Source: a virus
Length of the DNA stretch: 24,106 nt
Virus record (IMG/VR): IMGVR_UViG_3300033153_001426
Coordinates: 1-24,106 of that record
Reading direction: 5' to 3' (one strand)
Under the pieces are notes generated by a model. The model made no database searches and had not been told where the DNA came from. It was given only the letters and a program-made list of their open reading frames with translations. A program made the translations under genes and the position numbers. Below are positions 19,061-23,671 of this stretch, piece by piece. Each line of letters starts with the position of its first letter. Position 1 is the first letter of the stretch.

Positions 19061-19234
19061 CTAAACTTCAATATCTAAACGTTTATTCAATAACCTGTAT
19101 TTAAGAATTTTTACCTCTTTTTCCAGACCGATGTTCTTATTCTTCTCGGCGTAGTATTTCAGCATGAATGTAATGTTCATCACTGCTGCGGCTATTACAA
19201 ATATGTTTAGCAGTATTATATCAGGTTGGTTCAT
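19061..19234 (-). CDS. 57-aa small membrane protein with C-terminal coil
   Basis: Read on the minus strand from ATG 19234 to TAG 19061, with AGAGGA about 7 nt upstream. One TM segment (IILLNIFVIAAAVMNITFML, residues 6-25), then a basic coiled-coil tail (YYAEKNKNIGLEKEVKILK). Its ATG overlaps, as ATGA, the TGA that would end the original full-length methyltransferase, so it was a translationally coupled operon member. Last gene of the minus-strand block. Function unknown. Confidence 0.6.
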   Translation of the reverse strand: MNQPDIILLNIFVIAAAVMNITFMLKYYAEKNKNIGLEKEVKILKYRLLNKRLDIEV

Positions 19235-19341
19235 AATAATTCCTCTTGTATTACTTGTTTCGGCGGCTCAATGAATAAATCTGGTTGTTCGTATGCTTCT
19301 TTAATGCGCTTACAAGTTATATCGAAATATGTTTCATCCAG
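19231..19341 (-). pseudogene. Out-of-frame remnant of the methyltransferase C-terminus
   Basis: The minus-strand frame from 19341 to TGA 19231 reads LDETYFDITCKRI and then 23 more residues ending QEELL. This is the normal ending of N6/N4 methyltransferases after AKLG..FIGIE. It is offset from the upstream frame at GGC (19343-19341). The expected R.FIGIE stretch is missing, fitting a deletion of about 22 nt. It is untranslated unless ribosomes shift. Confidence 0.75.
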
Positions 19342-19913
19342 CCTAGCTTTGCACATGCGACTCCTGTTGTGCCGCTACCCATGAATGGGTCGAGTATTGT
19401 TTCTGTATCTTTTGGCAGTTTTTCTATACACCACCTCATTACCTCAACAGGCTTTTGTGTAGGATGACCATTCCTCTCTTCGCCTCCTTTTCTAAGCATG
19501 CCGTTCCACATATGTTTAAATAACCGTGTAGATGTCTTAAGGTTTGTCCATGCCAACTCCGCATCGGCAAATGAAGTATCACCGTTTTCTTTATCCCAGA
19601 TAAGCCAACACCTAGTGACAGGTAAATCAAAATAATTGCCCCCGAAAATAACCTGATAATTACTAACGTTAAGCATAACGTTAAGCATTTCTTCTGAACA
19701 CGGTTCTGAATCCCAATCGGTTTTTCTGTAATTAGATTTTTTTGCAGCACCACCTTGTTTGCCAGAACAGGACGCGGCATACTTATCGTACCCTATCCCA
19801 TAAGGCGGATCTGTAACAACCGCATCGACCTTTCCAAGCGTTGGCATAACCTCCAAACAATCGCCAAGATACAGCGTGCAATCGCCTATAATTTCTTTAC
19901 GTTTATATTTCAT
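19317..19913 (-). CDS. Beta-class DNA adenine/cytosine-N4 methyltransferase, C-terminally truncated by frameshift
   Basis: 198 aa. Motif IV DPPYG (residues 35-39) comes before motif I DPFMGSGTTG (175-184), with the target-recognition region between: the beta-class order (HinfI/CcrM type). VIFGGNYFDLP and LIWDKENGD are typical of phage members. Methylates N6 of adenine or N4 of cytosine; target unknown. After G191 the frame runs into MKHISI and stops, whereas the family continues R.FIGIE.DE.YFDI; that ending is present downstream in another frame (19341-19231). The lost FIGIE strand carries the acidic residue that binds SAM ribose, so the product is probably weak or inactive unless the break is an assembly error. 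ATGA overlap with the gene upstream. Confidence 0.82.
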   Translation of the reverse strand: MKYKRKEIIGDCTLYLGDCLEVMPTLGKVDAVVTDPPYGIGYDKYAASCSGKQGGAAKKSNYRKTDWDSEPCSEEMLNVMLNVSNYQVIFGGNYFDLPVTRCWLIWDKENGDTSFADAELAWTNLKTSTRLFKHMWNGMLRKGGEERNGHPTQKPVEVMRWCIEKLPKDTETILDPFMGSGTTGVACAKLGWMKHISI

Positions 19914-20428
19914 AACAAAAACTCCATAACTAAAATAACATCAAGCACCACATAAGCTAGCGCGCCTGATACGTATTCACCAATGACCGTGTAATGTTTA
20001 ACGCCTAACTTTAGAGAAACACCATAACCCAACCACTTAAATAGCCCACCAATTGCCGATACCGCGCCCCACAATGGATTAACGAACAATAAGGCAACAC
20101 TAAACGCTAATACACTTGCAAGCCCTGTGATGGCTAATATGGCGCATTTATACCAATACACAGGAAGTATATAATAGACAGGGCGTAACAAGAACTCCAG
20201 CCGCTCTGATTTCCCAATCATTGTATTGGGTCTGTCTAGTGATAACCCTCTTCCATGTCCTGTTGCCTTACCCGCTGCACATGCGCCCAGCACAAGTAAG
20301 CACCACCAACCGATATAGAAATAAGCAAATACCCCAAACGGTAACGCCCATAATAATGATTTCCACACATGCCCTAATGGAAAAGGTGACCCGTGTAGTC
20401 TTGATAATAGTGCGCCGATTATGAACAT
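19910..20428 (-). CDS. Multi-TM membrane protein, unknown function
   Basis: 172 aa with about four hydrophobic segments: near residues 25-50 (ALPFGVFAYFYIGWWCLLVL), 85-115 (with CAILAITGLASVLAFSVALL), 118-138 and 150-172. Between the first two lies a short polar loop with AGKATGHGRGLSL, and the N-terminus is MFIIGALLSRLHGSPF. Similar LSR.HG... / K.TGHG proteins occur in alphaproteobacterial phages without a known role. ATG 20428 has AAGGA 9 nt upstream, inside the end of the GcrA-like gene; it overlaps the methyltransferase by 4 nt. It may act at the inner membrane, e.g. exclusion; that is a guess. Confidence 0.6.
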   Translation of the reverse strand: MFIIGALLSRLHGSPFPLGHVWKSLLWALPFGVFAYFYIGWWCLLVLGACAAGKATGHGRGLSLDRPNTMIGKSERLEFLLRPVYYILPVYWYKCAILAITGLASVLAFSVALLFVNPLWGAVSAIGGLFKWLGYGVSLKLGVKHYTVIGEYVSGALAYVVLDVILVMEFLL

Positions 20429-20429
20429 A

Positions 20430-21104
20430 TTAATATTTCCTTGCTGGGTCTTGTGTTTTCGGTTTCGAATTAGGTTTATAATTTATAGCGCAATGCTCCT
20501 TGCAGTAAGGCTTGCCATCCGCTACAGGGTCACCGCACCATGTATCATCATCTAACGGTGAGTGGCACTGCTTACGATCTAAGCTTATTAAGGTTCTGCT
20601 TAAATTGGTCTGTACTACGCACTTATGTTGTGGTGCAGATCCTCTTGGGTTAACTTTTATTCTTAAAGCATACAATGCCATAGCAGAAGTAATTTCACTT
20701 AATGGTCTACGCATTTTCTTTGCAACTGTTATTGGTGCGTACCTTGCGATTAGAGTTCTAAAGATTTCTATATCTTTGTCGTCCATAGGAGGTTTGCGCC
20801 TACCTTTAAAACCGCCATTTAATCTCATACGATTGGCTTTACCTATAACTGTATTGCGACTGACACCTAGTTTCTCTGCTAAATCTGCTGCTGTCATTAT
20901 TGTATAATTTTCACATAATATTTTTATTCGCTCGTCTGTCCATATATTGTGTTTAGGATGCGCCTTGCTAAGTCCTAGTTTCGCAACCAACGCCTTAATC
21001 CTAGCTTCTGTTAGATAGAGCTTGTCGGCAAGCTCTCTTGCGGTCATAGAGCTGTAATTCTTTCTGATGAAAGCTAGCTTCTTTGGGTTTGTTATTATAG
21101 TCAT
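20430..21104 (-). CDS. GcrA-like transcription regulator with three HTH-like repeats
   Basis: 224 aa. GcrA is the alphaproteobacterial cell-cycle regulator that binds RNA polymerase sigma70 and activates promoters carrying CcrM methylation. The centre (56-97: TDERIKILCENY..., SRNTVIGKANRM) is the GcrA N-terminal HTH; residues 6-47 are a gapless diverged copy (10 of 42 identical by eye) and 108-150 a third, weaker one. The C-terminus has the GcrA ending: C180, WCG (C190), KPYC..H (C201, H204) then INYKP, a possible zinc site. Ordinary GcrA has one HTH, so the tripled form is unusual. AAGGAAA ribosome binding site 8 nt upstream; 1 nt before the membrane protein gene. Likely rewires host or phage promoters. 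Confidence 0.8.
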   Translation of the reverse strand: MTIITNPKKLAFIRKNYSSMTARELADKLYLTEARIKALVAKLGLSKAHPKHNIWTDERIKILCENYTIMTAADLAEKLGVSRNTVIGKANRMRLNGGFKGRRKPPMDDKDIEIFRTLIARYAPITVAKKMRRPLSEITSAMALYALRIKVNPRGSAPQHKCVVQTNLSRTLISLDRKQCHSPLDDDTWCGDPVADGKPYCKEHCAINYKPNSKPKTQDPARKY

Positions 21105-21106
21105 GT

Positions 21107-21349
21107 TTAGATTTCCTTATCAAAATTACAAAATACGCAACCTTCTGGCACGCACGCGGGTTCTTTATTTATATCTGGACATTCAAAGAATAAACTCGCT
21201 GTGTAATATTCTGTGTCCAATATATAATTTAGTGCCGCCGCTGCCTCCTCTGTATTGGTAGCCCTTATATACGCAGTGCGAAGGCTGCTGCTTAAGACAG
21301 GATGCAATTGCGTTGCGTATGTGTTGAATTTAACTGTGTGGTTAATCAT
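21107..21349 (-). CDS. Small ECP-motif protein, paralogue A
   Basis: 80 aa, unknown function. Residues 16-77 align without gaps to the 88-aa protein at 21736-22002, with 26 of 62 positions identical by hand count. Shared features: PVL.S.LR....RA.N.EEA near the start, a NY....T..Y linker, FFECP, EP, and a C-terminal C.F.NF. This copy has extra Cys (C51, C59 region), giving four cysteines that might bind metal; the other copy has only two. AGGGG ribosome binding site lies in the tail of the upstream gene. Confidence 0.58.
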   Translation of the reverse strand: MINHTVKFNTYATQLHPVLSSSLRTAYIRATNTEEAAAALNYILDTEYYTASLFFECPDINKEPACVPEGCVFCNFDKEI

Positions 21350-21735: not shown

Positions 21736-22002
21736 TTAATTAAAATTATAAAATAAACAATCTTTCGAATGCTCAATTGGTTCGTGGTCTAAATACGGGC
21801 ATTCGTAAAACATTTCGCTTTTATAATGATCCGTATGTCTTAAATAATTAATCACTTCCGCCGCTTCTGTTTCGTTAGCTGCACGAACAAATATACTTCG
21901 CAGGTTGCTAGGTAGCACTGGAAACACTCGGTTACGCTCTTTTATCAGGTTAGCTTGTGCTTTGTGATAAGTGTTCTGCGCTTTTCTTAGTTCTTTATCC
22001 AT
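21736..22002 (-). CDS. Small ECP-motif protein, paralogue B
   Basis: 88 aa. Residues 27-88 are the paralogue of the 80-aa protein two genes downstream (26/62 identical, no gaps): FPVLPSNLRSIFVRAANE, then YECPYLDHEP and DCLFYNFN. The N-terminal 26 residues (KELRKAQNTYHKAQANLIK) are a lysine-rich helix not shared with the other copy. GGAG 8 nt upstream. Its stop lies in the ribosome binding site of the next gene; it overlaps the preceding gene by 8 nt. Function unknown; ECP...EP...C is the signature. Confidence 0.58.
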   Translation of the reverse strand: MDKELRKAQNTYHKAQANLIKERNRVFPVLPSNLRSIFVRAANETEAAEVINYLRHTDHYKSEMFYECPYLDHEPIEHSKDCLFYNFN

Positions 22003-22734: not shown

Positions 22735-23289
22735 TTAATCTCCTGTATAAGCTCTCGCCACATATGTTATTTTGTTAATTATATAACTTATTATCTGTAT
22801 AGACACATTGTAATCATCAGCTAGTGACTTTAGCCCGTTATCGGAACTACCCCTTACATATCTTTTGCGTATTTGTTCTGCTTGTTTGTTTGTTAATTTC
22901 GCTTGCACGCACGCTTCGCCGTAATGATATGTGCCGTGTGTCTTTCTATCTTGTTGATTTTCAGAAGGTGTTCCCCATTTTAAATTACACGGTTTATTAT
23001 TGCTTGGATTTCCATCTAAGTGCCTCGTGACCAGACCTTTAGGGCGCTTACCAATAAATGCTTCTAAAACCAATATATGCACGAGGCAAGTAATTTTAAT
23101 GTTATGCCTATTTAATGAAACTGTTTGATGTCCATGTTTTTCGGTAAATGGTGTTATTATTCTACTTTTATAAAACCTGACTGCGCCCAATCTATTTTTT
23201 ATAAATCTATCCATTGTTCTTACACGACCAATATTAGAGACCTCATTATAACCTTCATATCCTATTACCTCTCTCCACTCTTCAAGCAT
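22735..23289 (-). CDS. Free-standing NUMOD4-HNH homing endonuclease
   Basis: 184 aa from ATG 23289, chosen because GAGGG is 8 nt upstream and the NUMOD4 domain starts at once (LEEWREVIGYEGYNEVSNIG). A TTG at 23304 would add five residues. The HNH part follows: VHILVLEAFIG, RHLDGNPSNN (catalytic His and metal-binding Asn) and NLKWGTPSENQQD. The C-terminus, KLTNKQAEQIRKRY and ADDYNVSIQIISYII, is a helix-turn-helix DNA-binding tail. The gene is a selfish cutter that spreads by copying itself into cut alleles. It sits between two small genes with 1-3 nt gaps and does not visibly split one. Confidence 0.87.
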   Translation of the reverse strand: MLEEWREVIGYEGYNEVSNIGRVRTMDRFIKNRLGAVRFYKSRIITPFTEKHGHQTVSLNRHNIKITCLVHILVLEAFIGKRPKGLVTRHLDGNPSNNKPCNLKWGTPSENQQDRKTHGTYHYGEACVQAKLTNKQAEQIRKRYVRGSSDNGLKSLADDYNVSIQIISYIINKITYVARAYTGD

Positions 23290-23290
23290 A

Positions 23291-23671
23291 TCAACAACCC
23301 TCAATCTTATTTAAAATATCCTTGAGCAGCTTGCGAGCGTTGGCGGCTTTGGTTATGAATAAGTTATCTTTTTCTGTGACACAATCCGCAATTAGTTTGT
23401 GATTAAGTCCAGCGCCACGGTTTATTTCCGTCCAAAGATCATGTGCCTTATTCAACTCCCACTCACCTTCTGTAGCTAATTCACCACTCTCCACCAACTC
23501 CCGAAACTGCTCGCTTTCCGCAAGGTCGGAGCATATGGATAGGGCTTTCTTAACGGTAACCTGATAATCTTGCAGCCATTCGATAACATCTAATTCGTTA
23601 AAATCGTCCGCTGGATAAAATAGCTCACCTTTACGGTAATCCTCTAGCGCATCCTTAAATCTATTTGTCAT
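23291..23671 (-). CDS. 126-aa helical acidic protein, unknown function
   Basis: Starts at ATG 23671, 11 nt inside the preceding gene's end; AGG about 10 nt upstream. Acidic and almost all helical: RFKDALEDYRKGELFYPADD, then LDVIEWLQDYQVTVKKAL and a Lys-rich C-terminus. No TM, Cys cluster or enzyme motif. Ends 1 nt before the HNH gene, and its tail carries that gene's ribosome binding site. No family recognised. Confidence 0.5.
   Translation of the reverse strand: MTNRFKDALEDYRKGELFYPADDFNELDVIEWLQDYQVTVKKALSICSDLAESEQFRELVESGELATEGEWELNKAHDLWTEINRGAGLNHKLIADCVTEKDNLFITKAANARKLLKDILNKIEGC

Follow-up and report, generated by a model that had tools for sequence, protein, structure and literature searches.

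The window, a viral DNA fragment of 24,106 nt from the metagenomic phage record IMGVR_UViG_3300033153_001426 (IMG/VR), encodes a GcrA-family protein that we consider, with moderate confidence, to be a phage sigma70 cofactor which would recruit host RNA polymerase and read either host methylation or none. A beta-class methyltransferase encoded in the same row of genes most likely belongs to the early/replication module as a separate gene that no longer functions here. Phage-borne GcrA has already been known since phiCbK (2012). The phiCbK-like phages encode GcrA homologues that were proposed to change the replicative state of the host (PMC3556154), and in the Agrobacterium phage Atu_ph08 gp5 is a GcrA and gp7 a cytosine methylase (PMC6630229). 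In Caulobacter GcrA, the sigma-interacting domain (SID) binds sigma2 and the DNA-binding domain (DBD) binds methylated DNA (PMC7403470). The window protein is predicted to contain both domains, preceded by an additional HTH.

Gene organization of the leftward early operon

The fragment comes from a podovirus-like phage; it has a rightward structural arm and encodes a lysozyme, a terminase and a P22-type portal protein. Small early genes run leftward from the right end and meet the structural arm near 18.5-19.1 kb. The minus-strand ORFs for the GcrA-family protein, a membrane protein and the methyltransferase form the far end of this leftward row and are adjacent on one strand, as had been noted from the ORF list (Table 1). 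Each of them starts with ATG and the spacing between neighbors is -4 to +1 bases, so that one transcript for the three ORFs is likely. The promoter of the leftward operon, with its candidate target sites, lies outside the window, beyond 24106.

Upstream of the GcrA gene, two small early genes are paralogs and, by their similarity, are a local duplication; a PHROGs search placed them in no known family. A homing-endonuclease-like gene with NUMOD4 and HNH also lies within the early operon, and homing endonuclease genes flank the GcrA gene of the Manatee Spring podovirus MW202485 as well. From GcrA alone we infer that the host is alphaproteobacterial; a prophage search with the portal protein, aimed at the host, returned no match.

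Table 1. Positions of the window features and of the loci discussed in the text
Feature	Position or locus	Strand	Basis or remark
GcrA-family protein, 224 aa: HTH1, canonical GcrA HTH2, weak HTH3, SID	20430..21104	-	Pfam GcrA 1.8e-18
HTH1 (aa 6-48)	20961..21089	-	Similarity of repeat 1 to repeat 2; helices in both models
HTH2 (aa 54-98), canonical GcrA DBD	20811..20945	-	DBD HMM 9.6e-12
HTH3-like stretch (aa 108-150), uncertain	20655..20783	-	Two low-confidence helices
SID (aa 170-212)	20469..20597	-	Alignments; 5yix_B, Foldseek prob 0.99
Membrane protein, 172 aa	19910..20428	-	Hydropathy
Beta-class N6_N4 methyltransferase (DPPYGI), C-terminus cut by deletion and frameshift	19317..19913	-	Pfam, PHROG 67, alignment
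Out-of-frame remnant of methyltransferase C-terminus	19231..19341	-	Translation
Small downstream ORF, 57 aa, final gene of leftward operon	19061..19234	-	ORF list
Paralogous small early genes upstream of GcrA	21107..21349; 21736..22002	-	42.6% identity over 61 aa, 1.2e-18
NUMOD4 + HNH homing-endonuclease-like gene	22735..23304	-
GcrA with window methyltransferase family within 5 kb	G080/L103, G096/L119, G081/L104, G077/L100
GcrA-linked prophage loci	L183 (Phenylobacterium kunshanense), L157, L174, L158, L148		L183, one gene between; L148, cut by contig end
Broken methyltransferases near GcrA	L100:5274-5597, L104:5883-6504, L174:6001-6736		Internal deletion or frameshift
Two-HTH GcrA-like proteins	L174:1087-1713, L158:6863-7375, L041:1368-1928, L046:2488-3195		Two HTH-like stretches before SID

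Domain architecture of the GcrA-family protein

The assignment of the protein to GcrA is borne out by sequence and by predicted fold. Its match to Pfam GcrA (PF07750) reaches 67.8 bits (cut-off, 26.9), and a PDB sequence search found the GcrA chain of 7ye1 (2.4e-8). The GcrA equivalog model NF050816 gave 50.1 bits, far under its cut-off of 280. Judged by these sequence profiles, the protein is a member of the GcrA family and not the host cell-cycle regulator itself. An AlphaFold2 model, for which 33 viral GcrA proteins were aligned, showed a pLDDT of ~95 for residues 60-90 and 170-200. Residues 53-95 of the model superpose on the Caulobacter GcrA DNA-binding domain in complex with methylated DNA (5yiv) with a Z of 6.4 and 1.0 Å over 43 residues, and residues 169-210 on the GcrA SID (5yix) with 1.1 Å over 41-47. 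By the method's own warning, structure-comparison Z values below 8 can be common; we trust these superpositions because GcrA itself, at 40-44% identity, takes the first two places in that comparison. MarR-type matches, which topped the Foldseek ranking, were set aside for their rmsd of ~17 Å.

The residues expected of the two domains are largely retained. HTH2 keeps W55, R83, N84, G88, K89 and R92 together with the RNxVIGKxxR helix. In alignments, the SID keeps the invariant C180, C190 and C201, the nearly invariant H204, and P183, and this pattern and the fold predict a sigma70-binding domain. The common W and GDP of CxWPxGDP are absent from the SID, which reads CHSPLDDD, and their absence could weaken the contact with sigma.

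Three HTH-like repeats had been proposed for this protein, and two of them are firm. The local alignment of repeat 1 with repeat 2 scores 51, where shuffled sequences average 19.6 (P about 0.0005), and helices are seen at HTH1 in both structure models. HTH1 is related to HTH2, yet it is without the RNxVIGK recognition residues. The third repeat is a possible one: comparison with the other two gives P values of 0.28 and 0.67, short of significance, and it is HTH-like by its helices, which are modeled with low confidence. We therefore did not retain an arrangement of three full HTHs, as the statistics back two.

Like Caulobacter crescentus GcrA (5yiv, 5yix and 7ye1), the window protein has a canonical RNxVIGKxxR HTH, a linker, and a SID with CxxP...CG...YC..H. 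It differs from Caulobacter GcrA in having 224 aa, an extra N-terminal HTH, an HTH-like stretch in the linker, and a SID without W and GDP. It is phage-borne like phiCbK gp222, Atu_ph08 gp5 and the GcrA of MW202485, and the last of these is likewise encoded at the end of the early arm, where this meets the structural arm. In contrast to the window protein, most phage GcrA homologues have one HTH.

A broken beta-class methyltransferase

The methyltransferase matches Pfam N6_N4_Mtase (PF01555, 6.6e-20) and PHROG 67 (1.1e-39), with the motifs DPPYGI, HPTQKP and then DPFMGSGTTG. Both translation and alignment place the catalytic DPPY motif before AdoMet motif I, which confirms the beta class. Its earlier characterization as short and not obviously CcrM is also correct: the CcrM model NF050803 gave 41 bits where 830 are required, matching only aa 142-191 of the 198 aa, and the C-terminal CcrM domain is absent. 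What the enzyme has in common with CcrM is the beta-class architecture and a local match around motif I. With the short beta-class phage methyltransferases of PHROG 67, such as p097 of Rhizobium phage 16-3 (~47% identity), it shares DPPYGI, HPTQKP and DPFMGSG, and it differs from them in being frameshifted and without the GxxFIGIE region.

The break reported for this gene is real in the present sequence and consists of a deletion and a frameshift at about 19341. According to an alignment with 20 relatives, close relatives continue after DPFMGSGTTGVACAKLG with a GxxF(I/V)GIE-type strand followed by YFDIAxxRI. The window enzyme leaves the frame at this point with ~22 nt gone, including the GxxFIGIE strand (motif II region), and the tail (LDETYFDITCKRIKEAYEQPDLF...) is undamaged in another frame, in which it runs to a stop that overlaps the following gene's ATG. 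In class I methyltransferases, an acidic residue at the end of that strand contacts AdoMet. With that strand end lost, the product of the broken gene is probably inactive.

An assembly error or a minority variant could also account for the break, in which case the enzyme would be intact in the population and would most likely act against host restriction. We regard this as possible though doubtful. In its favor, the out-of-frame tail shows no further damage and its stop still overlaps the next start codon, relatives of the methyltransferase are mostly intact, and metagenome assemblies do contain small deletions. Against it, the GcrA-linked copies of L100, L104 and L174 are also broken, differently, and real decay seems to happen too. 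Broken copies amount to 4 of 10 among the GcrA-linked genes versus 9 of 74 flagged elsewhere (p 0.04), a crude comparison in which the latter flags include possibly terminal stops and partial matches to longer enzymes, and from which we claim neither a link of decay to GcrA nor its absence.

Linkage of GcrA and methyltransferase genes in other phages

A survey for co-occurrence of the three genes gave a divided answer. The block of GcrA, membrane protein and methyltransferase was found in no other record examined, while a looser link of GcrA with the methyltransferase recurs in unrelated phages and prophages of Alphaproteobacteria. A PF01555 methyltransferase is present somewhere in 17 of 46 viral GcrA records, on the same strand and within 5 kb in 12 of them, and the window's own methyltransferase family is found at such a position in four of the 46. 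One of the four, L103, reads DUF1064, GcrA, DUF6378, methyltransferase, DUF7768 and then a helicase gene judged DnaB-like from its sequence, and the methyltransferases of L103 and L119 are intact. In L099, a near twin of L103, GcrA and the DUF6378 gene are present and the methyltransferase is absent, which indicates that the pair separates easily.

Among 80 genome loci carrying the window methyltransferase family, five have a GcrA-like protein nearby on the same strand, and the copy in the Phenylobacterium kunshanense prophage is intact. All five are alphaproteobacterial, as are ~26 of the 80 going by titles. Since GcrA is an alphaproteobacterial protein, its restriction to such loci is expected, and the prophage-locus survey shows recurrence, not statistical association. 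Searches from other starting points were negative: GcrA was found in none of the 39 viral records carrying the closest methyltransferase relatives, neither GcrA nor a window-type methyltransferase in any of 24 portal relatives (many of which are short fragments), and a PF01555 methyltransferase in none of seven named GcrA phages (Atu_ph08 not among them). A direct search of viral contigs found no close relatives of the GcrA proteins of the window and MW202485.

Where GcrA and the methyltransferase lie close together, the surrounding replication module contains DUF1064, DnaA_C, DnaB or primase genes. Two kinds of gene are repeatedly found beside phage GcrA: directly upstream one with DUF1064 (L103 and L183), and directly downstream one with a DnaA C-terminal domain (L100 and L183). 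The membrane protein of the window is hydrophobic, with at least three TM-like segments in its hydropathy profile. Searches of Pfam, PHROGs, NCBIfam, phages and viral contigs found no relative of it. We therefore dropped it as a candidate member of a conserved module, and it offers no ground for a three-part system.

GANTC and other sites in the window

GANTC occurs 45 times in the window. Compared with synonymous-codon shuffles, it shows no enrichment and no significant depletion in the late genes (41 versus 48.4 expected, z -1.5) or the early genes (4 versus 6.6 expected, z -1.3), and only three sites, without pattern, lie within 100 nt of gene starts. Other sites behave differently. GATC is depleted in coding sequence (late genes, 40 versus 61 expected, z -3.8; early genes, 6 versus 11.7, z -2.4), and TCNGA is depleted in late genes (z -3.0), which suggests restriction pressure other than GANTC.

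Possible roles of the phage GcrA

As a sigma70 cofactor, the window protein would most likely bind domain 2 of the host main sigma factor through its SID, and its HTH domains would tether the holoenzyme at chosen promoters and thereby promote open-complex formation in the phage's favor. HTH2 keeps the host-type recognition helix and so may still read GANTC sites that the CcrM of the host has methylated, and the added HTH1, possibly with HTH3, would widen or shift the choice of sites. As the neighboring methyltransferase is no CcrM and probably does not function, this cofactor would be independent of a phage-made mark here. Common membership in the early/replication module of alphaproteobacterial phages would explain why the two genes lie in one operon.

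The preliminary description had suggested that the operon could be a phage copy of the CcrM-GcrA switch, with the phage GcrA reading a mark set by the phage methyltransferase, so that sigma70 transcription is redirected. We found this unsupported, given an enzyme that is not CcrM and has lost its motif II region, a window with no significant GANTC bias, and a three-gene set found in no other record examined. With its writer broken and not CcrM, this genome is unlikely to hold a phage-made epigenetic switch, and we give a self-contained switch of this kind a very slim chance. A reader-writer pair may still operate in relatives whose methyltransferase is intact. The one-strand arrangement of GcrA and window-family methyltransferases in L103, L119 and the prophages L183, L157 and L158 would fit it, and several Sinorhizobium phages do encode GANTC-specific methyltransferases, unrelated to CcrM (PMC5537653). 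These GANTC-specific enzymes, as described, are however not of the short DPPY kind, and other specificities are hard to guess (PMC5537653); moreover, most relatives of the window methyltransferase occur without GcrA, and L099 has no methyltransferase. A broader proposal would be that alphaproteobacterial phages carry a recurring reader-writer pair, formed by a GcrA variant, in which swapped or multiplied DNA-binding domains sit on a constant sigma70-binding SID, and an orphan m6A methyltransferase, with promoters gated by non-GANTC methylation. The window phage would then have lost the writer and kept the reader. We consider this decidedly improbable.

An opposite effect on the host is conceivable as well, although we judge it improbable: the protein may occupy sigma70 domain 2 or the sites of host GcrA, fail to activate, and so halt cell-cycle transcription. 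Its diverged SID and extra HTHs are compatible with such an antagonist, and most of the phage sigma regulators in the table of a review are repressors (PMC7403470). Those repressors, however, act on sigma4, whereas the sigma2 binders listed in the same review, GcrA included, activate (PMC7403470), and the kept recognition helix of HTH2 argues for site-specific action. The sigma70 cofactor remains our preferred reading, under which phage GcrAs would exemplify the capture of a host sigma cofactor by phages.

Variable DNA-binding parts in phage GcrA proteins

With our own DBD profile, nearly every viral GcrA protein shows one DBD, and two are seen in those of Brevundimonas phage Bajun (L046), L117 and the Manatee Spring podovirus MW202485 (L041). 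By reading the sequences, two HTH-like stretches were also recognized before the SID in the GcrA-like proteins of the prophage loci L174 and L158. A constant SID combined with a variable DNA-binding part therefore looks like a recurring phage design at the level of sequence, and no description of it was found in the literature searched. GcrA is one of the few known sigma2-binding activators and, among those in the review, the reader of methylated DNA (PMC7403470). Phage GcrAs that keep the SID and change or multiply the DNA-binding part would be a natural experiment on what sets promoter choice, and their recurrent loose linkage to orphan methyltransferases makes the idea of a phage reader and writer testable in prophages, e.g. 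that of Phenylobacterium kunshanense.

Three further observations concern the detection of GcrA. Pfam misses the GcrA-like protein of L158 altogether, so phage SID proteins are probably under-annotated. Conversely, Pfam GcrA passes its cut-off in the archaeon Sulfolobus acidocaldarius, a control genome, which is unexpected for an alphaproteobacterial family. Finally, Synechococcus phage Ssp-JY42 (L042) encodes a host-like GcrA with 48% identity to that of Caulobacter over the matched pieces, and its recorded Synechococcus host may be wrong, e.g. if an alphaproteobacterium was present in the culture.
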